A stretch of DNA of 48,365 nt from a virus, in IMG/VR virus record IMGVR_UViG_3300013297_000009, positions 1 through 48,365 of that record. The stretch is one strand, 5' to 3'. Below are positions 3,410-45,736 of the stretch, piece after piece; within the stretch, counting starts at the first letter, position 1; each line of letters begins with the position of its first letter. Under the pieces are notes generated by a model. The model was not told where the DNA came from, ran no database searches, and worked only from the letters and a program-made list of their open reading frames with translations. The translations under genes and the position numbers were made by a program.

Positions 3410-3594
3410 GCAACACCACACCGCGAAACTGCGAAATCCTTCTGCGGTTCGTAATGCCCGTAGAAACGGCGCGTCCGTACTTCCGCAACCTTGAAGAGAC
3501 GATGGAGAAGATTCGGCAAGACTACTTTGCCGACTGCACGGACACGGACTTCGAGATTGGGGAGCCGAGCAGAAAGAAGACGATGGGCCGATGA
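3406..3594 (+). CDS. Hypothetical protein, 62 aa
   Basis: Starts by ATGA overlap. It contains a short beta-like opening (CEILLRFVMPV), a helix (YFRNLEETMEKIRQDY) and a basic C-terminus (PSRKKTMGR). No family recognised. Confidence 0.55.
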   Translation: MSNTTPRNCEILLRFVMPVETARPYFRNLEETMEKIRQDYFADCTDTDFEIGEPSRKKTMGR

Positions 3595-3761
3595 CCGCCA
3601 CCTACACACCCATCAACGAACGCGAAATAGCAAACCTGTGGCTGCTCTTCAGCTATACCGGCGTGCACGTATCCGCATTCCACGCGGTGCTGCTGCCCGG
3701 CTACCGCATCATGGGCTGGGAGTGGGCCGAGAAGTGTGTGGAAGGGTGGAGGAAGCCGTGA
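3591..3761 (+). CDS. Hypothetical protein, 56 aa
   Basis: Short gene with ATG at 3591 overlapping the upstream stop. It is rich in aromatic residues (NLWLLFSYTGVHVSAFHAV, MGWEWAEK). Its last codons contain the GGAGG ribosome site used by the downstream HNH gene. Function unknown. Confidence 0.55.
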   Translation: MTATYTPINEREIANLWLLFSYTGVHVSAFHAVLLPGYRIMGWEWAEKCVEGWRKP

Positions 3762-4273
3762 GTGTGCCGAAGCCGTTTTATGACGAAGGCGGGGAATGCA
3801 TGATAAAAACCTGTGAGTGCGGATGCGGTGAGGCTGTTGCAAAAAACCGGAGATTCATAACACATCACAACTTTCGAATACCACAACCGTTTTCTAGTCA
3901 ACACCGCGCGAGAATTGGTGCGGCGCAAAAGCGCGCTTGGGATACTACACGAAAGAGAACTCCTTTAGGCTCCAAAAACATCGATAGACATGGGTATGTA
4001 CGCGTGAAAACACACCCAAGCTCTGGCAGGTGGACACCAGAGCACATTCTAGTTATCGAAGCCTGCATTGGCCGAAAGACAACTCCGGGTGAGCAAGTTC
4101 ATCATATCAACGGCATAAGAGCAGATAACCGTCCAGAAAACCTGTACTTATGTCGAGACCATAACCACCACCAATCAATTGAACGATCACTTACAAAGGT
4201 CGCAAGAGAGCTTCTCAATGATGGAATCATCCGATTTAATACCGAAACCGGTACGTATGAACGCACTTCCTAG
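3758..4273 (+). CDS. HNH homing-type endonuclease, 171 aa
   Basis: Likely free-standing HNH endonuclease. A GTG start at 3758 follows GGAGG and overlaps the previous stop; an ATG at 3800 is an alternative. The N-terminus has a CECGCG zinc motif and a FITHHNF block. The core runs HGYVRVKTHPSSGRW, then WTPEHILVIE, then EQVHHINGIRADNRPENLYL and CRDHNHHQSIE, which is the HNH_3 pattern with H-H, N and H residues. It cleaves DNA and may act in gene mobility or genome packaging. Its base composition is more A/T-rich than its neighbours, which suggests later acquisition. It overlaps the methyltransferase start by 17 nt. Confidence 0.85.
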   Translation: MSVPKPFYDEGGECMIKTCECGCGEAVAKNRRFITHHNFRIPQPFSSQHRARIGAAQKRAWDTTRKRTPLGSKNIDRHGYVRVKTHPSSGRWTPEHILVIEACIGRKTTPGEQVHHINGIRADNRPENLYLCRDHNHHQSIERSLTKVARELLNDGIIRFNTETGTYERTS

Positions 4274-4978: not shown

Positions 4979-5596
4979 ATGACCGCATTGATTGTTGAGA
5001 CTGAGCCAGACATCATCGAACATGAAGGTCTGTTGATTGACCGGAATACTGGTGAGATTATGGGGCTGGCTGGTAAACCGGAATTCCACGTGACAGACCT
5101 GTCGTCCGCCGAATGGGTCCTTGAGAAGATGGACACAACGGACTTCGAGATCCACGGCCTCCGCTTACAGCTCGCCGCCATTCAAGAGCGCATGGAGAGC
5201 AAGATAGCCGAGAAGCAGCGCAGGATTGACTGGTTCAGAATGCGCTATGGATCCGAACTGGAACAGTTTGGGCGCGAGTACCTTGCAACCACCAAAGCTA
5301 AAACGAAGACGGTCAAGACGCCATTCGGAAACATCGCATTCCGCACCGTCAAAGGCCGCATTAAGGTCAAGGAAGGTGTCGAGACCACATACGATCTTCT
5401 GGATCCGTTCTCTGTAACACCACGAATAATCAAGTGGGCTGAGACCCTGGAGAGCAAGCCGTTGCAGGAAAAGCACACTGTGGCGTTCATGGTCTCGAAG
5501 CTGCCGAAAGACCTGACCATTGAAGACCTGCCCGCAGACCTTTTTGAGCAGACACCAGATGAAGAGAAGTGCGACATCAAGGTTGGCGCACGGTAG
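4979..5596 (+). CDS. Gam-like host-nuclease inhibitor, 205 aa
   Basis: ATG 4979 follows AAAAGGAGATT. The protein has a long helical region (about residues 55-105: LQLAAIQERMESKIAEKQRR) then KTKTVKTPFGNIAFRT at about 111-126. This layout matches Mu-Gam-like proteins, which bind double-strand DNA ends and block RecBCD or AddAB exonuclease. It probably protects linear or replicating phage DNA. No adjacent exonuclease or annealase is recognised. A 274-nt gene-free structured region follows. Confidence 0.72.
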   Translation: MTALIVETEPDIIEHEGLLIDRNTGEIMGLAGKPEFHVTDLSSAEWVLEKMDTTDFEIHGLRLQLAAIQERMESKIAEKQRRIDWFRMRYGSELEQFGREYLATTKAKTKTVKTPFGNIAFRTVKGRIKVKEGVETTYDLLDPFSVTPRIIKWAETLESKPLQEKHTVAFMVSKLPKDLTIEDLPADLFEQTPDEEKCDIKVGAR

Positions 5597-6113: not shown

Positions 6114-6622
6114 CTGACAATTGGAACGGTGAAGGTTACGACGCAGAGGTATCGAGTGGCGGTGGCCTGTGGCTAAGACTGAAGAAGCGCGGCGACAAAG
6201 TGAGATTGAGGCTGTGTTCCTCACCATGCAGATACACGGAAACCTACACGAAAGACGATGGCACGGAAGAGACAAAACGCAAAGTATCTTGGCTCGCCAT
6301 TCAGAAGGAAGTGGTAAACGGGCAACCAAGCAAGCGCGTAGTCGTGTTCCAGAATGGGCCGATGGTCTACGGGATATTGCGAGACTTAGACGCAGACGAG
6401 GCATGGGGCGATCCTCGCCTATACGACATTAGCGTAGAGCGCACAGAAGAGAGCGGCAAGTACTACACAGTTACCCCCCTTCCGAAACCTATGGGTCCAA
6501 TCAGCGCGGAGGAGCAGGAATTGCTCAACACGGCGGCTGTTGATTGGCCTGCCATCTGTCTCAAGTCTCGCGGGGAAACTCCAGGCGGCACCGGGCCAGA
6601 CGACGAAGATCCGTTCGCTTAA
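6110..6622 (+). CDS. Single-stranded DNA-binding-like protein, 170 aa
   Basis: Start ATG 6110 has AAAGGA upstream. The N-terminal part (GGLWLRLKKRGDKVRLRL) and the middle (WGDPRLYDISVER) resemble phage ssDNA-binding proteins with a gp32-like OB core. The C-terminus is a short acidic tail ending DDEDPFA, similar to the protein-docking tail of bacterial SSB. It would coat ssDNA during replication and recombination and recruit partners through the tail. It sits between the SWIM protein and a PLD nuclease. The assignment rests on tail and pattern, not on a catalytic motif. Confidence 0.65.
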   Translation: MTDNWNGEGYDAEVSSGGGLWLRLKKRGDKVRLRLCSSPCRYTETYTKDDGTEETKRKVSWLAIQKEVVNGQPSKRVVVFQNGPMVYGILRDLDADEAWGDPRLYDISVERTEESGKYYTVTPLPKPMGPISAEEQELLNTAAVDWPAICLKSRGETPGGTGPDDEDPFA

Positions 6623-6632
6623 AGGAGTGGCT

Positions 6633-7277
6633 ATGTACGTTGAGACGTTTTTCAACCGTCCTTCTCGTCCATTTGACCGCTCATTGCTAATCAACGAAAT
6701 GAAGTCCGCTACTCACTATTTGGCTATCGCCTCGGCATGGTTCACAGATATGGAACTTGCCGAGGTGGTTGTTAATAGCAAGGCTAGGTTGCGCACTATC
6801 ATTTTGAGTAGGGCAGACCTGAATCGGCCTGGCTCCAAAGAGCTTTATGAGTACGTGTTGCGGCATCACAAAACGTTCAAAGTGGACGATGATGAGGGCG
6901 AGGAAGTAGACGCTGGACTGCACGTGGCTGTACTTGGAAATGGCGACTTCCACGAGGGTGTCATGCACCATAAGTTTGTCATTGTAGATGACGAATCCGT
7001 TTGGACTGGTTCATTCAATCACACTTATCAAGCACGCCGGAATTATGAAAACGTTGTGCGCATCCAGTCTTCAAAGATAGCTAGAGCATATCAATTTGAA
7101 GTCCAAGAGCTGCTCAGAGATGAGGCACTGTGGATGGGGTCGTCTCAATTTGCCTTTGGAGCGGGAGCGTTCCGTTGCGCTGCTTGCAACAAGATAAAAC
7201 CAATGGGTGAATTGGGAGAAGATGGGTCTTCGTGGGGGCGATGTGCAGAGTGTGTCAAATCAGGCAAAAACTGGTAG
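6633..7277 (+). CDS. Phospholipase D-superfamily nuclease, 214 aa
   Basis: ATG 6633 follows AAAGGAG. It has one HKD motif: H112, K114, D119, then G126-S127 and N129 (HHKFVIVDDESVWTGSFNH), the Nuc-type PLD signature. Single-motif members dimerise to form one active site and cut DNA without metal ions. The C-terminus adds a zinc ribbon (CAACNK ... CAEC), which may target DNA. It may act in recombination, DNA processing or host DNA breakdown. It lies in the replication cluster and overlaps no neighbour. Confidence 0.82.
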   Translation: MYVETFFNRPSRPFDRSLLINEMKSATHYLAIASAWFTDMELAEVVVNSKARLRTIILSRADLNRPGSKELYEYVLRHHKTFKVDDDEGEEVDAGLHVAVLGNGDFHEGVMHHKFVIVDDESVWTGSFNHTYQARRNYENVVRIQSSKIARAYQFEVQELLRDEALWMGSSQFAFGAGAFRCAACNKIKPMGELGEDGSSWGRCAECVKSGKNW

Positions 7278-14871: not shown

Positions 14872-15249
14872 ATGCCATTTGAAACGGGCAACCAATTAGC
14901 CAAGGGAGGCGCAAGGCCAGGATCGGGACCGAAGCCAGACAACATCAAGCGAGAGTTGCAGCAGATACTTGATGAGGCGGTCCCTGATGAGCATCGCAAA
15001 GACATATTTGTAATGCTTGCAACACGCGCACGCTCGGGGGACACTAAGGCTGCCGCTCTTGTTCTAGGCTATATCTACGGCAAGCCGGTAGAGCGTAAAT
15101 CCCACTCATTCGAGAATGAATCAGACTCCGATCTTATCGCCGGAACAGCGGCAATCCTTCAAGGACTTGCAGGCGCGTTTGCTGGAAATGCAGAGGCGCG
15201 GGCTGCCACTGCCGAACCTGACGGAAGCGATACGGAATCCGGAGAGTGA
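14872..15249 (+). CDS. terS: Terminase small subunit, 125 aa
   Basis: Small DNA-recognition subunit that binds the packaging site and presents DNA to the large subunit. The N-terminus (GNQLAKGGARPGSGPKPDNI) is the classical G-A-R-P-G-S-G-P-K start seen in many phage TerS. A helical domain follows (LQQILDEAVPDEHRKDIFVM). The C-terminus is acidic (EPDGSDTESGE). It overlaps the large-subunit gene by 134 nt if the first ATG of the latter is used. Confidence 0.75.
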   Translation: MPFETGNQLAKGGARPGSGPKPDNIKRELQQILDEAVPDEHRKDIFVMLATRARSGDTKAAALVLGYIYGKPVERKSHSFENESDSDLIAGTAAILQGLAGAFAGNAEARAATAEPDGSDTESGE

Positions 15250-16633
15250 GAGGGTTTATCCTGACCTCTGGCAGTTTGTAGAAGACACCAGTGCCGTTCG
15301 ATTAGACGCTTGGCAGCACCACTTATGCAATCGACTCCAGCAACTACCAGAACAGACAGGACAGCGGATAGCGATACACGCACCGCCCCAGTTGGGCAAG
15401 TCTTTGATTGTGTCTCAACGATTACCAGCGTGGTATATCGGGCGACTGCCGACAACACGTATCAAGCTGTCTTGCTACAATATCACTCAGGCGACAAGGC
15501 ATGGCGTCGTATGCCGCCAGATTATGCAAGATCCGTCGTATACGGAGTGGTTCGGCCCGGATAGGTCAATCCCGGCCCGCTGTAGCGCAGAAGAGTTCAC
15601 CACCGATGCACGCAGGAGACTGCGAGACGCGCAACCGTCATTCAAGGCGTTAGGGCTGGCAACTGGATTTGTTGGGCAAGGTGCGGACCTACTGATTATT
15701 GACGACCCGTACGCATCGCCACAGGACGCAATGTCGGAGGTTGTGAGAGAGTCTACGTGGGCGTTTTGGGATGAATCCGCCCGCGTTCGATTGACAGAGC
15801 AAACCAACGTTGTTGTGATGTTCCACCGCTACCATGGTGATGACCTTGCAGGCCGGTTATTCGAGCGCGAGGGTGTCATTGAAGAGGGGGGTGCATGGGA
15901 AGTCCTGCGGTATGCGGCTCAGGAGGACGGCGAGAAGTACTGTATGCCGCCCGATCGCGATGGAGGGGCGTATCTCTCAACCCGGTTTAGCCAGGAATGG
16001 TACAAGTCTCAAGAGGCACGCGGTTTAATCTGGTTTGCACAGTTTCAGGGCAGGCCGAGTGCCAAGGAGGGCTTGTTCTTCCAGCCTGATAAGATTGGTG
16101 TTGTTGATGAGCCCTCTTCCGATGTAAATGCTATGCGCGTTCGGGCATGGGACTTTGCAGCAACCGCAGGCGCAGGTGACTGGACTGTTGGCGTTCTTCA
16201 GTCTCACACCAAAGGAACCACTTTGATAGAAGATGTGAGGCGCGGCCAATATTCACCCGAAATGGTTGAGTTTAATGTGATCAATTGCGCGCAGAATGAC
16301 CCGCCTGGAACTTTGATACGGATACCTCAAGACCCTGGTGCCGCAGGCAAGCATATGGCAATAGCGATGAAGAATCGCCTGCATCAACTGGGATATCGTG
16401 TCAAATATGAGCCGATATCTGGAGCTAAGGAAAGTCGAGCCTATGACTTTGCCTGTGCTGTTAATGGCGGAATCGTAAATATGGTTCGCGCGCCTTGGAA
16501 TAGCAAGTTTCGTGAAGAGTTGAGGTCCTTTCCGTTGGGTGCGAACGATGACCAAGTGGACGCCGCCAGTGATGGATATAACGAATATGCTAAGCGTGGG
16601 CGTATTTCAGTTGTACGAAGTGGGAGATCTTAA
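15116..16633 (+). CDS. terL: Terminase large subunit, 505 aa
   Basis: DNA-packaging motor and nuclease. Walker A-like APPQLGKS is at residues 89-96 and Walker B LLIIDDP at 192-198. The C-terminal RNase H-like nuclease shows RAWDFAAT (D346) and a late NDDQVDAASD (about 477-486), the usual second metal-binding Asp pair. Length fits the family. The start is uncertain: ATG 15116 lies deep inside TerS, and an in-frame ATG at 15188 is possible. The portal gene follows immediately after TAA. Confidence 0.93.
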   Translation: MNQTPILSPEQRQSFKDLQARLLEMQRRGLPLPNLTEAIRNPESERVYPDLWQFVEDTSAVRLDAWQHHLCNRLQQLPEQTGQRIAIHAPPQLGKSLIVSQRLPAWYIGRLPTTRIKLSCYNITQATRHGVVCRQIMQDPSYTEWFGPDRSIPARCSAEEFTTDARRRLRDAQPSFKALGLATGFVGQGADLLIIDDPYASPQDAMSEVVRESTWAFWDESARVRLTEQTNVVVMFHRYHGDDLAGRLFEREGVIEEGGAWEVLRYAAQEDGEKYCMPPDRDGGAYLSTRFSQEWYKSQEARGLIWFAQFQGRPSAKEGLFFQPDKIGVVDEPSSDVNAMRVRAWDFAATAGAGDWTVGVLQSHTKGTTLIEDVRRGQYSPEMVEFNVINCAQNDPPGTLIRIPQDPGAAGKHMAIAMKNRLHQLGYRVKYEPISGAKESRAYDFACAVNGGIVNMVRAPWNSKFREELRSFPLGANDDQVDAASDGYNEYAKRGRISVVRSGRS

Positions 16634-18184
16634 TTGCTCTCCGGCCTAACATACGCGCCATCCCAGGCAGCAGTACAGAATAAGCGGCTTCAGGCGTTCG
16701 GCATAAGCGCTAAGCAGAAGCAGGCGATCCGTGCATGGCGTTACTGGGATGGTACTGCTTACAGCCGCCAGTACGGGATGCAGTTTCCGCACCCGTATGT
16801 GGAGTGGGATGAGACCAAGAACGGGCCGCGGCCTCTTATCCAGCCGCTACCAAAGATAGTAGTGGAGCAGTCTGCTCAGTTCCTATTCGGGGAGCAGCCG
16901 AGGTTCATTGTTGGCAAGCAGGAGGACACCGGCGACGGCTCTCTGCAAAAGCTGCTGGACGACATTATCAGCATGAACCAGCTCTATGAGAAGCTGCTGC
17001 CGGAGGCGAGAGCGTGTAGTATCGAGGGTGGCCGCGTGTTCAAGTACGCATGGACGCCGGAGATGACAAAACGCCCTGTTGCCATCATGACTCACACGCA
17101 GTTCCACGTCACATTTGACCGTGATGACTTGGACGCAGACAAGATTAACTCTGCTGTGCTGCGCTTCAAATATCAGGATGGGCAGGGTGAATGGTGGTGG
17201 TATCAGGAGAAGTGGGACGAGAAGCGGCTAACTGTTTACAGGCGTATCCATACCACCGAGAACGACGATAGCGGGTTCCAGCAGCAGATAGAACAGCACC
17301 AGTGGCCGGTAGATTACTCGCAGACTAACCCATTCGGCGTTATCCCGTTCACTGCCGTTCATAACCGATTGATTGCCGGTGAGACTGACGGGTACGGTGA
17401 TTACTGGGACCTGTTCGGGATGTTCGATCAGTACAATCACAAATGCTGGCTGGAGCACAAATCCGACCAGATAGACATTGACCGTATTCTCGTGGTGCTG
17501 AACGACAGTTCTATTGACCTTGTATTACCGAAGGCTGGGGATGCGCTTAAGATCAACGGTGAGAACACAGATGCGAAGTGGTTAGAAGCCGCTAACAATA
17601 TGCGGCCCGAGATCCGTCTGACTAAGGGCGAGCTGAAGCAGATGATCATGCGCGGTGCCGGGTACAGCGACCCGAACCCCGAGGAGATAACCAACAAGGG
17701 CAATCTGACCCGCGCTGTCTGGAACCTGGTCTATGCAGACAGCATAAGCAGCACGAGAGAGAAACGGCACCACTGGGGCGAGAACGGCCTGTGCCAATTC
17801 TTTGAGAGTATGTTGCTTGGCCTTAGCCGATTACCCGATGCCTGTACCATGTATCCAGCATTGAAGAAGGTTAGCGATCAAGACCCCACAACGTATGACG
17901 TTCAGATTAAGTGGGGCGAGATGTTCAAGACAACGGTAGAGGAGCGCACTGCGACCATAACAGACGCCACTGCCAGTATTACCTCTGGTTTCCTAACTCG
18001 TGAGCGTGCTACGGGTATTGTGGCCGATGCGTGGGGCATTGAGGACGTGGCAGTGCTGCTGGAGGAGCTGCAAGACCAGCACGAAATGCTTGATGAGGTT
18101 GACCAGGCCAACGTGGACACGCTGACGGCTGGCGTCCAGAAGACGCTGGCTGATGCGAAGGGTGATGATGGTGGAAATGATTGA
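16634..18184 (+). CDS. Portal protein (SPP1 gp6-like), 516 aa
   Basis: Forms the dodecameric ring through which DNA passes. The TTG start at 16634 follows the terminase TAA directly, with GGGAGA as ribosome site. It has the layout of SPP1-type portals: a basic N-terminus, a YVEWDE/PLIQPLPKIVVEQ segment, an NPFGVIPF block, a long wing and a Glu-rich helical C-terminus. Position after TerL and before the MuF gene supports this. TTG use is notable for such a highly needed gene. Confidence 0.9.
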   Translation: MLSGLTYAPSQAAVQNKRLQAFGISAKQKQAIRAWRYWDGTAYSRQYGMQFPHPYVEWDETKNGPRPLIQPLPKIVVEQSAQFLFGEQPRFIVGKQEDTGDGSLQKLLDDIISMNQLYEKLLPEARACSIEGGRVFKYAWTPEMTKRPVAIMTHTQFHVTFDRDDLDADKINSAVLRFKYQDGQGEWWWYQEKWDEKRLTVYRRIHTTENDDSGFQQQIEQHQWPVDYSQTNPFGVIPFTAVHNRLIAGETDGYGDYWDLFGMFDQYNHKCWLEHKSDQIDIDRILVVLNDSSIDLVLPKAGDALKINGENTDAKWLEAANNMRPEIRLTKGELKQMIMRGAGYSDPNPEEITNKGNLTRAVWNLVYADSISSTREKRHHWGENGLCQFFESMLLGLSRLPDACTMYPALKKVSDQDPTTYDVQIKWGEMFKTTVEERTATITDATASITSGFLTRERATGIVADAWGIEDVAVLLEELQDQHEMLDEVDQANVDTLTAGVQKTLADAKGDDGGND

Positions 18185-18995: not shown

Positions 18996-19559
18996 ATGAG
19001 TGTAGAAACAGTTGCACCTCCCGTGGTGCCGGTGCAGGTCGCAACCACAGATCCGATAACTACCCAGACGGTGGTTATTCCGCCCGTCGATGACACCAAC
19101 AACCCGCTCCGGCAGGTGCGCGAGCAGTTGAACGCTGAGAAGCAGGCCCGTAAAGATTTAGAGGACCAGCTCGCAGCCATCAAGCGCGACCAGATGAACG
19201 AGATTGACCGGCTGAAGCTGGAAGCGGAAGAGGGCAAAGGGTACAAGACTCAGCTTGACGACGCTGTTAAGGCGGCAGAGTTGGCATTCCAGCAGCAAAT
19301 TGATTCCCTTCCAGAGCAGTTTAAGAGCGTGGCGGAATTGGGTTGTGCTGGGAAAACCTATACAGAGAGAATGGCCTATCTGGCTGCATTTCGCGCAACT
19401 ATTCCCGCCCCTGTTCAGGCTGCCGGAACGGTGACTGGTGGCAGTACGGTGAACGGTGGAATGCCTACGATCAAGATAGATCCAAGGAACCCGTTCGGCT
19501 CCTACGAATCGCAGGTTGGGTTCAAGAGTGCGGGATTAGACAGTTTGGTTGCTAAGTGA
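18996..19559 (+). CDS. Scaffolding protein, 187 aa
   Basis: Directs procapsid assembly and is later lost. Ala/Pro/Val/Thr-rich N-terminus, coiled coil at about residues 40-105 (LRQVREQLNAEKQARKDLE), and a Gly/Pro-rich end with SYESQVGFKSAGLDSL. Size and position directly before the major capsid protein are typical. Its last codons contain the capsid promoter. Confidence 0.82.
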   Translation: MSVETVAPPVVPVQVATTDPITTQTVVIPPVDDTNNPLRQVREQLNAEKQARKDLEDQLAAIKRDQMNEIDRLKLEAEEGKGYKTQLDDAVKAAELAFQQQIDSLPEQFKSVAELGCAGKTYTERMAYLAAFRATIPAPVQAAGTVTGGSTVNGGMPTIKIDPRNPFGSYESQVGFKSAGLDSLVAK

Positions 19560-19565
19560 TATAAT
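19537..19565 (+). promoter_or_regulatory. Major-capsid promoter (sigma-70 type)
   Basis: TAGACA (19537-19542, five of six consensus bases), 17-bp spacer and TATAAT (19560-19565) straddling the scaffold stop. It would allow high transcription of the capsid gene on top of the operon promoter. Confidence 0.7.
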
Positions 19566-19571
19566 AGTCGC

Positions 19572-19707
19572 AACTTCACACACGGCCCCCTGACGCCGCA
19601 AGTCAGCGTGGCGAAAGCCAGCAGACCCCGGACCTACCCCGGCCTTCGGTAGAGACATCGCGATGCGCAACCATGCGCTAGCTTTCTCTCTGTCGGAGGC
19701 TTCTTTT
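19572..19707 (+). promoter_or_regulatory. Structured 5' leader of the major capsid gene
   Basis: A 148-nt gene-free stretch. CTGAC/GTCAG (19590-19594 with 19602-19606) is followed at once by a TGGC-GAAA-GCCA tetraloop hairpin (19609-19620), then a CTACC/GGTAG hairpin (19634-19638 with 19648-19652), then GCGC/GCGC before the CGGAGG ribosome site. It may control capsid translation or stabilise the mRNA. No known riboswitch is recognised. Confidence 0.5.
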
Positions 19708-20754
19708 ATGGCAGTATCCACAAATGCCGTAAACCTTGCCCAGTACGCCATGATGTCTAACGATCCTCTGGTGCAGGCCATTACTTTCGGCCTTCTCCAG
19801 AACTCCATCGTTATGCAGGATATCCCCATCATCACAAAAGCGACGTTGCAGGTCAACGGCGTCCGATGGACCGGGAACCTGCCGGGCGTCAACTGGGCAC
19901 AACTCAACACTGACCCGACGGTTGTTTCGGGTACTCCTTCCGCATATCAAGAGCAGGCGTTCATTGTCCGTAACGCTATCGACGTGGACCGCTGGCTGCT
20001 GATTGATCAGAACCAGATCGTTGACCCGCGTACTGCCCAGCTTGGCGCTTATATCAAGGCTCTGGCATACGACTTCAATGACAAGTTCTTCAACAACGCC
20101 CCGGTCAACACCGGCTCCAACTTCACGCTTGATGCAAATGCGCCGACTGGTCTACGGTATCGCCTGGATAATCCCTCCGCCTATGGCGTAAAGATGTCTG
20201 GTGCCAATGCTGAGGCGAAGATTGATGCGGGCGGTTCAGCCGCAACCCTCAAGCCATCCACGCGCACCTCAACCACGATCAACGCCTTCCTCGAAAAACT
20301 GGATCAGCTTTTATGGTCTGTCGATTCACCGGACGGCACCAACGTCATTCTGTACATGAACGAGGATGTAATCCGCAAGTTCCAAGCTGGTCTGCGCTTG
20401 ATGGGAAGCTCTGCGCTCGACATCACGAAGGACAACTTTGACCGCGCCGTGCTCCACTTTAAGAACGCGGTCATTCGTGACCCCGGATATAAGGTGGATC
20501 AGACGACCCGCATCATCACGTCCACTGAAACCAATGCGGGCGCAAACGGATCGTCCACGTTCAGCTCCATCTACGCCGGACGGTTCGACACAGACCACTT
20601 CTGTGCATGGCAGCTAACACCGCTGGCAGCGCAGGATATCGGGCTCGTGGGGAACGCCGGCACCATGTACCGCATGATCATCGATTGGGCGGTTGGACTA
20701 CTCCAGATTCACCCGCGCGCAATCGGGCGTCTCTACGACATCGAAGTGGCTTAA
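19708..20754 (+). CDS. Major capsid protein, 348 aa
   Basis: ATG 19708 with CGGAGG upstream. Blocks typical of an HK97-fold capsid: a hydrophobic N-terminal helix, TLQVNGVRWTGNLPGVNW, QEQAFIVRNAIDVDRWLLID, and a C-terminal AVGLLQIHPRAIGRLYDIEVA strand. Length and order (scaffold, capsid, decoration) agree. It has its own promoter and leader, as expected for the most abundant protein. Ser/Thr-rich loops could be sites for the glycosyltransferase encoded downstream; that is speculation. Confidence 0.85.
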   Translation: MAVSTNAVNLAQYAMMSNDPLVQAITFGLLQNSIVMQDIPIITKATLQVNGVRWTGNLPGVNWAQLNTDPTVVSGTPSAYQEQAFIVRNAIDVDRWLLIDQNQIVDPRTAQLGAYIKALAYDFNDKFFNNAPVNTGSNFTLDANAPTGLRYRLDNPSAYGVKMSGANAEAKIDAGGSAATLKPSTRTSTTINAFLEKLDQLLWSVDSPDGTNVILYMNEDVIRKFQAGLRLMGSSALDITKDNFDRAVLHFKNAVIRDPGYKVDQTTRIITSTETNAGANGSSTFSSIYAGRFDTDHFCAWQLTPLAAQDIGLVGNAGTMYRMIIDWAVGLLQIHPRAIGRLYDIEVA

Positions 20755-20766
20755 GGAGAGAACATC

Positions 20767-21189
20767 ATGGCTTACGATGCAAATCTAATCCTCGCCACTG
20801 CAACAACCGTGGCGACATCGACAACAACCAGCAGCACCGCGCTTTCACTGCGACAGCCTACAGGAACCTCTGTTGTTAACCCTGGGGGCACTCCTCGCCG
20901 TGGCTTAAAGGCGCGTATCCGAGTTACCGCGTGTACCGGAACAGCCCAGACCGTGCAGTTCCAGCTAGCGCACTCGGACGACAACAGCAACTACACGCCA
21001 CTTGCGTTTGCGCTGGGAGCCGGGTCAACTGTGACAGCTCCTACTGCAACGCTGACGAACGCAGCAGGCCCTTCGGTTCTCTACTTGCCGTTTGAGACTG
21101 ATAAGCCGTGGGTCCAATTGCAAACTATCACTACGGGTACGAACGTTTCGGTTGTCTATGCAGCCGAACTTGCCACGGCCCGCCCGTAA
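20767..21189 (+). CDS. Capsid decoration-like protein (Bbp16-like), 140 aa
   Basis: ATG 20767 follows AAGGAG. Thr/Ser-rich start, then a jelly-roll-like pattern with VQFQLAHSDDNSNYTPLAFA and a PSVLYLPFETDKPW block. This resembles Bbp16-type capsid-associated proteins, which are encoded just after the capsid gene. It probably binds the outer capsid as trimers. Confidence 0.65.
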   Translation: MAYDANLILATATTVATSTTTSSTALSLRQPTGTSVVNPGGTPRRGLKARIRVTACTGTAQTVQFQLAHSDDNSNYTPLAFALGAGSTVTAPTATLTNAAGPSVLYLPFETDKPWVQLQTITTGTNVSVVYAAELATARP

Positions 21190-21201: not shown

Positions 21202-21426
21202 ATGGGTGACCAGCTAAAGCCGTACGTAGGCTCAGCCACTCCAAGGGGAGCCGCTAACACGATGCGCCCTAAATATGCAAACGGTATGCCCTCTGACCCG
21301 TCCGTGCCACCGTCTAACGCATATCGGCCCTGTGACGGGGCTATCGTAGACCTGCCGTTTACTGACATACGCGTGGCTGGTTCGGCACCGGCAGCAGATC
21401 CGCGCGATCCTAAGTCGCCACAGTAG
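21202..21426 (+). CDS. Hypothetical Pro-rich protein, 74 aa
   Basis: Small Pro/Asp-rich protein (PSDPSVPPSNAYRP, then APAADPRDPKSPQ) with little predicted structure. It lies between decoration protein and glycosyltransferase, so it may be a minor virion component. Function unknown. Confidence 0.6.
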   Translation: MGDQLKPYVGSATPRGAANTMRPKYANGMPSDPSVPPSNAYRPCDGAIVDLPFTDIRVAGSAPAADPRDPKSPQ

Positions 21427-21442
21427 GAACGCGCATCAATCG

Positions 21443-21481
21443 GCATGGGGCGGGAGTGTTTCCCTCACTTCTTCCCCATGC
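21443..21481 (+). promoter_or_regulatory. Nested hairpin upstream of the glycosyltransferase
   Basis: GCATGGGG (21443-21450) pairs with CCCCATGC (21474-21481), with a smaller AGTG/CACT pair inside. There is no T tract after it, so it is not a terminator; it may be an RNA processing or stability element between capsid and glycosyltransferase genes. Confidence 0.5.
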
Positions 21482-21510
21482 TGTACACCGCAAAGGGAGG
21501 CGGTTGATAA

Positions 21511-22740
21511 ATGGCAGACGCCACAGAGCAGCACCTTGACAACCAGGAAATGGATGTAGATGACGCAGTTCTAGCAGCATGGAACCTGCGCGATAGTGAC
21601 CCTGTTAAGTGCGAAACGGTATTCCGCGAAGTCCTGAACGCACGGCCTAACCACCGAGACGCGCTCCGGTTCTTCGGCGTGTTTCTCAGCAAGGCAGGCC
21701 GCTACCACGAAGCTATTACGCTCCTGAAGCGGTGCATCGCTTACAACTCGGCAGATGCGGCTGCATGGTGTGATTTGGGGGCCGCTTACAGCAAGATAGG
21801 CGACTATCCTGCCAGTATCGCAGCCTGCAACCGTGCGCTCGAAATAGCACCGAACATGCCATCGGCCCGATACAACCGAGCTACTCCGCTCCTATGCCTT
21901 GGAGACTGGGAGAACGGCTGGAAAGACTATGAATACGGCAAGGTGGCCGGTGTGCGTGTGCAGCGGTTCTTGCAGCCTGAATGGTGCGGCTGGAGCCCGA
22001 TAGAAGGCAAGACGGTGTATGTTTGGGCCGAACAGGGTTTCGGTGACCAGATAATGGGCGCACAGCTCATCCCGATACTGCGAGAGCGGTTCAAGCCCGC
22101 CAGAGTGATTTTAGAAGTAAACCGCGAACTCGTTGCACTCATGCAAGGACTGGAGTTTGTGGACGAGGTAGTAGCGCAACCGGACGACAGACATGAGCCG
22201 ATGCTGTTTGACGAGCATGTTAGCTTGATGAGTTTGCCCGCCGCGCTCAGCCTGAAGCAAAGTGATTTGCCGGGTGCCGTGGAGTACATCAAGGCTCCTG
22301 CCGTGGTATCTGAGGCGAAGGTCGGCCTGTGCTTGCGCGGCAGCCCCGCACACCATGATGACGCCAACCGGTCTGTATTCGATGCCTTTGAACTGCCTGT
22401 TCCTTATGTAGAACTGGGCGGTACTAAGCAGGCTGGAATGGACTGGTTACAAACCGCTCAGATAATCGCCGGGTTGGATCTCGTGATTACCGTGGATACG
22501 GGTGTGGTGCATCTGGCGGGGGCGATGGGCGTTGAGGCGTGGGTACTGGTTCCGAAGCTGTGCGATTACCGGTGGGGGCAGTATGGGTCCGATGTTCCTC
22601 AATGGTATCCGCGAGTGATCATTTGCCAGCAGGACATTCAAGGAGATTGGAAGCCTGTATTTAGTAGGATTTGGGAGCAATGCGCACTGCGATATGGCAT
22701 TCCTACTAGCAGCCCAATCGAAGATTACGCCTATGTATGA
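21511..22740 (+). CDS. TPR-repeat glycosyltransferase (GT9/heptosyltransferase-like), 409 aa
   Basis: N-terminal TPR repeats at about residues 33-135 (for example AAWCDLGAAYSKIGDYPASI). A linker with a W-A-E-Q-G-F-G-D-Q motif (172-180) and a GT-B-like C-terminal domain follow. It has the sugar-nucleotide site pattern GLDLVITVDTGVVHLAGAMG (about 321-340) and WVLVPKLCDYRWG. This matches bacterial TPR proteins with a heptosyltransferase-like domain. The likely role is to transfer a sugar to a phage or host protein or envelope glycan. In a capsid-connector operon it may glycosylate virion proteins. Donor and acceptor are unknown. Confidence 0.85.
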   Translation: MADATEQHLDNQEMDVDDAVLAAWNLRDSDPVKCETVFREVLNARPNHRDALRFFGVFLSKAGRYHEAITLLKRCIAYNSADAAAWCDLGAAYSKIGDYPASIAACNRALEIAPNMPSARYNRATPLLCLGDWENGWKDYEYGKVAGVRVQRFLQPEWCGWSPIEGKTVYVWAEQGFGDQIMGAQLIPILRERFKPARVILEVNRELVALMQGLEFVDEVVAQPDDRHEPMLFDEHVSLMSLPAALSLKQSDLPGAVEYIKAPAVVSEAKVGLCLRGSPAHHDDANRSVFDAFELPVPYVELGGTKQAGMDWLQTAQIIAGLDLVITVDTGVVHLAGAMGVEAWVLVPKLCDYRWGQYGSDVPQWYPRVIICQQDIQGDWKPVFSRIWEQCALRYGIPTSSPIEDYAYV

Positions 22741-23326
22741 ACTCTCCAAGTCCGTGCAGCGGCGAATGCATGAGCCCGGGTTCGTTGCCAACTACTTTGT
22801 AGGCTCCGGGATAGATATCGGGTGTGGAGAGGATGCGCTAGACCAGTACGGTCCGCAGTTCCCCCTGATGACTGCGCTAAAGCGGTGGGATATTCAGGAC
22901 GGCGATGCCCAGTACATGGAGGGCGTGCCGGACAATGAGTATGACTTCGTGCACTCAGCGCACTGCTTGGAGCATGTTTATAACCCGGTAATTGCGCTGG
23001 ATAACTGGATACGGATATGCAAGCCTGGTGGTCACCTCGTAGTCTTGATTCCCGATGAGGACCTGTACGAGCAAGGCGTTTGGCCCCCAAACTTCAACAC
23101 AGATCATAAGTGGGCTTTTACGTTGTTTAAGGTTGAGAGCTGGTGTCCAAAGAGCATGAATGTGCTGACGCTGCTCTGCCGGCCCGACATCGAGGTTTTG
23201 AGTGTTAAGCAGTTGCATCAGACGTTTCGGCACTATCCAGAACGGTTTGACCAGACAATGACGCCGCTGGGTGAATGCGCCATTGAGTTTGTTGTGAGGA
23301 AACGGGAATGTCAGCAACAGCGTTAG
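22733..23326 (+). CDS. SAM-dependent methyltransferase (class I), 197 aa
   Basis: ATG 22733 overlaps the glycosyltransferase end by 8 nt, so the two are coupled. SAM-binding motif I (GSGIDIGCGED, about residues 24-34) and the Methyltransf_11 post-motif HSAHCLEHVYNPVIALDNW then CKPGGHLVVLIPDED are clear. There is no DNA target motif (DPPY), so the substrate is probably a sugar, lipid or protein. The pairing suggests methylation of the sugar added by the upstream enzyme. Confidence 0.85.
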   Translation: MYELSKSVQRRMHEPGFVANYFVGSGIDIGCGEDALDQYGPQFPLMTALKRWDIQDGDAQYMEGVPDNEYDFVHSAHCLEHVYNPVIALDNWIRICKPGGHLVVLIPDEDLYEQGVWPPNFNTDHKWAFTLFKVESWCPKSMNVLTLLCRPDIEVLSVKQLHQTFRHYPERFDQTMTPLGECAIEFVVRKRECQQQR

Positions 23327-23940
23327 TGGTAGACCCGGCCAGTATGAGCGCGGTCCGTGGGATTATGGATGACACCTCCGCGCCGTACATCGTTTCGGAC
23401 GACAAGCTGCGCACGGTTATGCGCGATTCCAGGCGCACGGTTATGTTTCGTGACCCGGCGTATGCCAGCAGCGGCATCAATCCTTACTACACGTATCGGG
23501 GCCGGATACCTGTTCCTGCAAACGACACCGAAACATCCGTGCTACAGGCCCAAGGCGACCTCCGAACATACCAGGCTAAGCCTTACTACCGCCATTGGGA
23601 CGCTAACGGAACGGTGCTGGTTTGGTGGAATGGCGTTCAGAAGACGATTACCACGGATTACGACGTTAACTACCTGGAAGGCCGCGTGGTGTTTACCAGC
23701 GACGTTCAGGACTGGGAGATGATAACGGTAACGGCTTCATACTATCCGGTCTATTTCATCTCTCGGCAGATACTTCTACAGCAGATGGCAAGCGCGCAAG
23801 GCGGCGGTGCGAAGCTGTCTGACCAGGCCGGTGATGATAAGTGGACGTATGCCGGGATTAAGGATCGTATCTTCGCGCTCGATCAGATGGTGGCAAGCAT
23901 GGCCCCGAGAACGATCCGCAGAGAGATGAAGCTGTACTGA
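23308..23940 (+). CDS. Head-tail connector/adaptor protein, 210 aa
   Basis: First gene after the modification pair. It has a beta-rich region (TVLVWWNGVQKTITTDYDVN and GRVVFTSDVQDWEMITVTASYYPVYF) and helical ends. The TDYDVNYLEGRVVF block is common in siphovirus connector genes. Its location between capsid and tail-completion genes supports an adaptor role that stabilises packaged DNA. Confidence 0.65.
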   Translation: MSATALVVDPASMSAVRGIMDDTSAPYIVSDDKLRTVMRDSRRTVMFRDPAYASSGINPYYTYRGRIPVPANDTETSVLQAQGDLRTYQAKPYYRHWDANGTVLVWWNGVQKTITTDYDVNYLEGRVVFTSDVQDWEMITVTASYYPVYFISRQILLQQMASAQGGGAKLSDQAGDDKWTYAGIKDRIFALDQMVASMAPRTIRREMKLY

Positions 23941-44719: not shown

Positions 44720-45736
44720 TTATTTGCTCCTCATGGAAATGCGCTGCCGATGACTCTGATTAATCTCGCGCTGCGCGGGTGGTGTGATTGGTAGTGCGTG
44801 CGGCTGGATCGGCTGTATCTGTGCTGGCTGCTTGAATCCGAGCTTGTCCTCGGCAACCTGAAACAGGTGTATCGAACCTTCCCGTAAATAAACCTCGGTT
44901 GTAGCAAGTCGCTCATGTCCGAGCAGGGCTTGAATGTCGCGCATCGGGGCGTTGTTGCGGTGCATTCGGTCTGCCGTGTTGTGGCGGATACTGTGAGGCA
45001 GGAAGTTCTTTGCTCCTCGCATCTCTGCGGCTGCCGCAATATCCCGGAGAAGAGTGCGGAGCCCAACGTCACCAAGCCGCCTGTTATGGTCAATGGCGAA
45101 CAGGAAGTCGTGTTTGCAGGTTCCGCGCAAATCCCTCCATGCAATGATCGCGGCGTGAGCGGCACTGATTAGCGGTGTCTCACGTGTTTTCTGACCCTTA
45201 CCGTTGCGGACTATTAAGCGGCGCTCACGCCCGTCTTCGCTCATCACAACATCATTCAGCCGCAAGTTCATCAGCTCCGTTCGGCGGATAGCGCAGTACG
45301 TAAATATTGAGAGGACCGCCTTACCCATTGCGGCGCGGCGCGCATCTGCTAAACGGTCACAGGCGACGAGATATGCCTGTACCTCCTCGTCCGTAATATG
45401 CTCACGCTCAGCGGCGTCTAGTTGCGGCTTGTCCAGTTGCATCGCAGGATTCGCTTCAAGGCACTTCTTCTTCTCAACCATCCATTTACCAAAGTTGCGC
45501 AGCGCGTCGATATGCGCGGTCCGTGTTCGAGGCCGATCACCCTTGTTAGTCCGATAGGTAATCCAGGCATAGAGAACTTCATAGTTGAAATCGATTACTG
45601 TAGGGGTCGCGCCGGTCGCCTCCAGCCAGAGAATGAACGCACGAATCCGGCTGCCATACGACTTTATAGTCGTGCGCGGATTGTTATCATTGCGCATCTT
45701 TGTGACGTATTCGTTGACGAGCACTCGAAGCGTCAT
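44720..45736 (-). CDS. int: Tyrosine-recombinase integrase, 338 aa
   Basis: Catalyses integration and excision. SAM-like N-terminal core-binding domain to about residue 105, then a catalytic domain with Arg (about 150, CAIRRTELMNLR), Lys (about 180, NGKGQKTRETP), HSIRH (about 248), GHERLATT (about 272) and the nucleophile in TTEVYLREG (about 282). A Pro-rich C-terminal extension of about 50 residues is unusual. AGGAGG lies upstream of ATG 45736. attP is 220 bp upstream of the start. Confidence 0.95.
   Translation of the reverse strand: MTLRVLVNEYVTKMRNDNNPRTTIKSYGSRIRAFILWLEATGATPTVIDFNYEVLYAWITYRTNKGDRPRTRTAHIDALRNFGKWMVEKKKCLEANPAMQLDKPQLDAAEREHITDEEVQAYLVACDRLADARRAAMGKAVLSIFTYCAIRRTELMNLRLNDVVMSEDGRERRLIVRNGKGQKTRETPLISAAHAAIIAWRDLRGTCKHDFLFAIDHNRRLGDVGLRTLLRDIAAAAEMRGAKNFLPHSIRHNTADRMHRNNAPMRDIQALLGHERLATTEVYLREGSIHLFQVAEDKLGFKQPAQIQPIQPHALPITPPAQREINQSHRQRISMRSK

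Follow-up and report, generated by a model that had tools for sequence, protein, structure and literature searches.

Two overlapping genes of a virus, one for a TPR-glycosyltransferase (TPR-GT, 409 aa; 21511..22740, plus strand) and one for a class I SAM methyltransferase (210 aa; 22694..23326, plus strand), lie between the genes of the viral shell and a connector gene, and together they probably form a virion-glycosylation cassette. They belong to the virus record IMGVR_UViG_3300013297_000009 of IMG/VR, which was analysed over its whole length of 48,365 bases and is called the window hereafter. In the mechanism that we propose, the TPR domain would grip a head protein soon after its synthesis, while it is still in the host cytoplasm; the likeliest candidates are the capsid protein and the Thr-rich product of the decoration-type gene. 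The GT-B domain would then move a sugar from a host nucleotide-sugar onto this head protein, the translationally coupled methyltransferase would cap the added sugar, and the particles would leave with a methylated glycan coat. The activity of the glycosyltransferase, its donor and acceptor, the target of the methyl group and the benefit to the phage are all what we infer. A wider reading is plausible, though we stop short of calling it probable: a widespread, hardly cultured cassette of an OGT-like TPR-GT and an exchangeable sugar-methyltransferase, often with a second GT, would sit between the decoration and connector genes of tailed phages with different capsids, where it would build a methylated glycan coat on the head, the TPR-GT having been taken up perhaps three times.

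Gene order around the cassette

The structural operon of the window comprises a terminase gene (15116-16633), a portal gene (16634-18184) and the major capsid gene (19663..20754, plus strand), whose product of 363 aa matches the major head protein family phrog_212 (3.3e-25). Its match to Pfam GP7 (3.0e-5) lies under the family cut-off, and its identity to phage capsids is below 30%, with matches scattered over several host genera. Just 5' of the capsid gene, a promoter-like site (19537-19565, plus strand) shows 11/12 matches and a TG before the second hexamer; the number of such sites around it is no higher than chance.

The gene just 3' of the capsid gene (20767..21189, plus strand) encodes a 140-aa protein resembling phrog_427 (9.4e-4). 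Most sibling loci have a similar gene after that of the capsid, and the product is presumably a decoration protein. It is rich in Thr (19% T, 26% S+T) and is a candidate acceptor of the sugar. Its model is all-beta and of low confidence (pLDDT 60.5), a quality too low for a fold search. The share of Thr in the decoration-type proteins is 19% in the window, 16% in locus L008 and 11-12% in L005-L007; Thr enrichment was dropped as an argument, the cases being too few.

A 74-aa reading frame from the ORF list (21202..21426, plus strand), with no match in Pfam or PHROG, comes next, and a hairpin detected by RNA folding (21441..21483, plus strand) separates the shell genes from the cassette. The segment 21427-21515 folds with an MFE of -36.5 kcal/mol (z -2.96), and only 1 of 200 shuffled sequences was as stable. 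We rejected the hairpin as an intrinsic terminator, for it has no T run and is absent from the terminator list; it is possibly an attenuator or an mRNA-stability element. The slot is closed by a gene for a 210-aa connector or head-completion protein (23308..23940, plus strand). This product has no match of its own in Pfam or PHROG, and it matches a profile of the connector-position genes of L006-L008, the seeds of which include the window's own sequence. Thus, three statements of a preliminary description of this DNA are borne out: a TPR-GT overlaps a SAM methyltransferase devoid of a DNA motif (Pfam, ORFs and motif scan), the pair lies between capsid and connector genes (phrog_212 upstream, connector-position profile downstream), and a stable hairpin precedes it.

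Elsewhere in the window, a phage integrase gene (44720-45736, minus strand; Pfam 2.2e-25) indicates that the phage may be temperate, and the left part encodes HNH endonuclease, Mu Gam-like and PLD-like proteins at 3491-4273, 4979-5596 and 6540-7277.

The two enzymes

The glycosyltransferase matches Pfam TPR_1 (8.0e-12) and TPR_12 (9.1e-11), and it matches Glyco_transf_9 at 2.8e-5 and 24.0 bits (cut-off 22) over residues 310-340 only, a stretch that covers the D-T-G-x-x-H region. The assignment to the heptosyltransferases (GT9) hence rests on 31 residues; the match to NCBIfam heptosyltransferase I is weak. TPR helices span residues 16-147 and a GT-B domain about 166-395. The AlphaFold2 model, computed from a 17-row alignment, is confident and shows these two domains (pLDDT 85, pTM 0.83), being weak over residues 281-310 (pLDDT blocks of 58, 72 and 52). 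When the model was searched against the PDB with Foldseek, the first 45 rows were all SPINDLY and O-GlcNAc transferases (OGT), with E-values from 1.2e-8 and low whole-chain TM values of 0.26-0.34. A second PDB alignment reached Z 21.5 over about 137 residues, mostly of the TPR part, so that the GT part was barely compared alone. Judging from the model, the nearest whole-protein fold matches appear to be TPR plus GT-B enzymes of the OGT/SPINDLY type. The preliminary description as heptosyltransferase-like is corrected to this extent: the Glyco_transf_9 match, above the cut-off, covers 31 residues, and the fold is nearest to OGT and SPINDLY.

Two motifs of catalytic type are conserved in the family, E-Q-G-x-G-D (EQGFGD, residues 174-179 of the window protein) and H334. 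The latter ends the motif DTGVVH (329-334), in which D329 is shared with close relatives of the window. An Asp at such a site acts as the base in GT9 enzymes. Compared with L008, L228, L211, L236 and the bacterial relatives, the window protein is about 20 residues shorter in its C-terminal Rossmann domain. Being shortened, weakly modelled there, fast-evolving and on a long branch, it may be a changed or weakened version of the enzyme. As far as the predicted domains and the analogy with known enzymes go, the architecture supports a protein-directed glycosyltransferase.

The methyltransferase matches Methyltransf_23 (3.3e-11) and Methyltransf_11 (8.0e-10), and the DNA-methyltransferase motif [DNS]PP[YFW] is absent from it. 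Its reading frame shares 47 nt with that of the glycosyltransferase, or 8 nt if translation begins at the second ATG (22733); the latter arrangement would be a layout usual for translational coupling. Among the 55 loci having both genes, the methyltransferase ORF begins within 5 nt of the GT gene or inside it in 31. The type of partner varies: Methyltransf_23 types in the window and in podoviruses, an FkbM methyltransferase in L008, and in L228 a Methyltransf_24 with a weak rhamnosyl-O-methyltransferase match. In L018 (7746-14150) the order is TPR-GT, NDP-sugar-type C-methyltransferase, GFO_IDH_MocA oxidoreductase and nucleotide-diphospho-sugar transferase (the second GT), followed by an SU10-type adaptor and Hc3. 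No methyltransferase accompanies the GT of L211 and L236. Because different sugar-type subfamilies replace each other at this place, the glycan is the likelier target of the methyltransferase, in place of the protein that the preliminary description had suggested. Both genes are under purifying selection in the relatives, with dN/dS values of 0.08-0.40 for the GT and 0.007-0.40 for the methyltransferase over 30 pairs, many of which share members.

Recurrence of the cassette in other phages

Scans of viral contigs with the single sequences of the window GT and methyltransferase found no relatives. Profile queries succeeded where single sequences failed, yielding 22 viral loci and then at least 582 relatives, 80 of which were kept. 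A set of 105 GT loci, including MW202512, MW202713 and the window, was dereplicated at 90% identity to 76. Of the 58 loci with at least 1.5 kb of upstream sequence, 48 have a capsid or decoration gene as the immediate 5' neighbour on the same strand, and 3 more have a T4-type capsid gene on the other strand. Where at least 4 kb of downstream sequence is available (51 loci), a connector gene follows within 6 kb in 42, a methyltransferase gene in 34 and a second GT of the GT8/nucleotide-sugar-transferase type in 36. The preliminary description proposed looking for the same gene pair at the same place in other phages, and this search was positive: among 40 loci with both flanks, the GT occupies the slot in 32 and is accompanied there by a methyltransferase in 24.

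No capsid or decoration neighbour was detected in seven loci (L004, L010, L016 with its short flank, L025, L026, L030 and L110), using context HMMs that were seeded from cassette-bearing loci and may understate head genes elsewhere. GT relatives do occur at other sites, in the tail region in L025 and among non-structural genes in L010 and L026. In the cultured cyanophages BUCT-ZZ01 (L003) and S-SRM01 (L175), a TPR-GT relative stands beside tail-fibre genes, and tail proteins may be the acceptors in these two phages. The T4-type phages L012 (7845-9041), L015, L017 and L019 have their TPR-GT close to the gene of the major capsid protein, on the opposite strand. In L004 (MW202713; 2048-5613), a TPR-less relative annotated as the glycosyltransferase TibC is grouped with other ORFs, among them one for a methyltransferase, and the genes for the PLP enzyme and the terminase follow closely; this is a further site on the virion side.

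We also compared seven GT queries with 50,697 phage records by tblastn. Coverage of at least 80% was reached in two records. One is MW202512, whose isolate name marks it as a metagenome assembly; the other, MH319737, comes from a single cell and reached this coverage with one query only. No cultured phage was named at this coverage.

Because the first locus set had been seeded with the GT, surveys seeded with the capsid were run. The capsid lineage of the window was represented by 80 loci and the window itself, making 81 records. A TPR-GT is present in 8 of them, 5 being distinct (the window, L008, L211, L228 and the L236 group), always directly 3' of the capsid and decoration genes and nowhere else in the flanks examined. 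In L006 and L007 the decoration gene is followed by the connector gene with nothing between, and these records, which are fragments, contain no GT. For the podoviruses, 80 loci were merged to 52, and 38 with at least 2.5 kb of downstream sequence were kept. In 24 of them the TPR-GT follows the capsid gene at a distance of no more than 1.5 kb, in 0 it lies elsewhere, and in 14 it is lacking; the capsid seeds came from GT-bearing loci, which makes 24/38 a biased figure for prevalence. Where the downstream sequence reaches 5 kb or more (31 podovirus loci), the order capsid-GT-connector occurs in 20, with a methyltransferase between in 18 and a second GT between in 18.

In the podoviruses, the GT is gained or lost 3 times in the tree of the capsid proteins (37 loci), and also 3 times in that of the decoration proteins. 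Strict co-evolution of the GT and the decoration gene was considered and rejected as a claim, these changes on both trees being inseparable from shared ancestry. Of the 14 podovirus loci lacking the GT, 11 escaped the decoration HMM at an E-value of 0.01, but proteins of 130 aa occupy that place in them. The decoration-type proteins of these GT-lacking podoviruses mostly show an H-Y-L-R-like N-terminal motif that is absent in the GT-bearing ones. The two kinds of decoration protein may have been swapped together with the cassette.

Comparison with known systems

The closest precedent for a sugar placed on a structural protein by a TPR enzyme is FlmG of Caulobacter, whose TPR domain binds flagellin and whose GT domain modifies it (PMC7591256). 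Compared by description, FlmG has the same N-terminal TPR and C-terminal GT-B arrangement as the window GT, and it acts in the cytoplasm on a self-assembling structural protein, as we propose here. By the same account it differs in being cellular and in using flagellin as acceptor and pseudaminic acid as donor. Thus, the suggestion that the enzyme adds a sugar to a virion protein draws support from its protein-directed architecture and from FlmG, with the acceptor itself, and any gain in hiding or adhesion of the particle, remaining predictions.

Virion glycosylation has a phage precedent too. The capsid and tail tube of mycobacteriophages are described as glycosylated (PMC12619734, PMC12363180), and virion glycosylation of Che8, Corndog and Myrna is attributed to Freeman et al. 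2023 (via PMC12691614, PMC12619734 and PMC12363180). In these accounts the phage supplies the GT that glycosylates its capsid; the enzymes Che8 gp110 and Corndog gp38 are named there with no mention of a fused TPR domain or of a methyltransferase coupled to them. A phage-encoded GT placed with head genes, as expected for virion glycosylation, is found in the window and its relatives.

Like the window GT, the GT41 enzymes (O-GlcNAc transferase and SPINDLY) have a TPR superhelix before the GT-B domain, but the TPR part of the window GT is much shorter and its motifs are nearer to the GT9 type; no GT41 family was among its Pfam matches up to E 0.1. With the GT9 heptosyltransferases and the TibC-like protein heptosyltransferases it may be compared through the Glyco_transf_9 match, over the short stretch given above; it differs from them by its TPR fusion. 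The bacterial TPR-GTs of Proteobacteria and Planctomycetes (L032-L095) belong to the same two-domain family, but they are cellular, usually have more TPRs and often occur as tandem paralogues. A flagellin link of these bacterial genes was sought with one regular expression, a crude search that gave no match. In our searches of the open-licence PMC literature we found no TPR-GT/methyltransferase cassette beside phage capsid genes.

If the proposed role is true, self-glycosylation of the phage head would be common among uncultured phages rather than peculiar to mycobacteriophages. A constant position beside a small decoration-type gene would narrow the acceptors to a short list, within reach of ordinary mass spectrometry, and for TPR-directed glycosyltransferases there would be a compact system in which only a few substrates come into question. 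Better names could then also be given to several hundred phage genes, at present annotated as TPR, hypothetical or methyltransferase.

Alternative explanations

Instead of a head protein, the pair could modify another protein of the virion, for example a tail fibre or the connector. The TPR-GTs in the tail-fibre clusters of BUCT-ZZ01 and S-SRM01 and in the tail region of L025 speak for such a target, but in the window lineage and in the podoviruses the gene stands at the capsid and decoration genes and not at tail genes, and we consider this unlikely. It is quite unlikely, too, that the pair acts on the host, altering its surface glycans or LPS in the course of infection or in the lysogenic state so as to block superinfection, an alternative raised in the preliminary description. 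Changing surface glycans is a known role of phage GTs (PMC10202952, PMC12619734), the matches to Glyco_transf_9 and to heptosyltransferase I, though weak, agree with it, and the integrase leaves room for lysogeny. We favour it less since the TPR fusion points to a protein acceptor and since many phages have the cassette between head genes inside the structural operon, where late expression with the head is expected; furthermore, the predicted model of the GT has no obvious membrane segment.

A different objection is that the position says nothing about function. The gap between the decoration and connector genes is one that tolerates insertions, because sibling phages carry GIY-YIG/NUMOD3-type endonuclease ORFs there on the minus strand (L242:7788-8486, L229:7469-8197 and L206:5760-6695; Pfam was run for L242 only), and an HNH-type endonuclease adjoins the GT of MW202512 (L002). 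The slot may accordingly be permissive rather than functional. Yet the GT, the methyltransferase and the second GT recur together in the gap, the cassette genes are under purifying selection, and the few changes in GT presence on the podovirus capsid tree argue that the GT is inherited with the head and does not often move. That the gap is a mere insertion hotspot seems to us improbable. Phage GTs often act on DNA (PMC12619734), and glycosylation or hypermodification of the phage DNA would be a further role for such enzymes. It is extremely improbable here, for the fold and domains are of the protein O-glycosyltransferase type and the genes do not stand among replication genes; on the Pfam domains and the lack of the [DNS]PP[YFW] motif, both this reading and that of a DNA methyltransferase were rejected. 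Glycosylation of the head by the TPR-GT, with methylation of the sugar by its partner, is the reading that we prefer.

Origin of the phage glycosyltransferases

In the GT tree, the enzymes of the window and L008 fall with three siblings among the bacterial TPR-GTs (group support 95), the branch of the window being long. The podovirus GTs form a group of their own and the T4-type GTs a third phage group. As far as the tree goes, it suggests two or more independent recruitments of GTs by phages. A single phage origin of the window-type and podovirus GTs was evaluated with the AU test, giving p values of 0.0012 in a smaller set and of 0.0236 when L110 was added, both of which reject it, and of 0.209 with a fuller set, whose tree left out L004, L025 and L030 for their long branches. 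Since the last value fails to reject a single phage clade, independent recruitment was dropped as a claim. TPR-GTs have perhaps been taken up beside capsid genes three times, in the window lineage, the podoviruses and the T4-type phages. On the bacterial side, very long ORFs of more than 2,000 aa with TPR-GT-like matches were observed in Methylococcales and Crenothrix (L037:1638-14990, of about 4,450 aa, L049 and L050).
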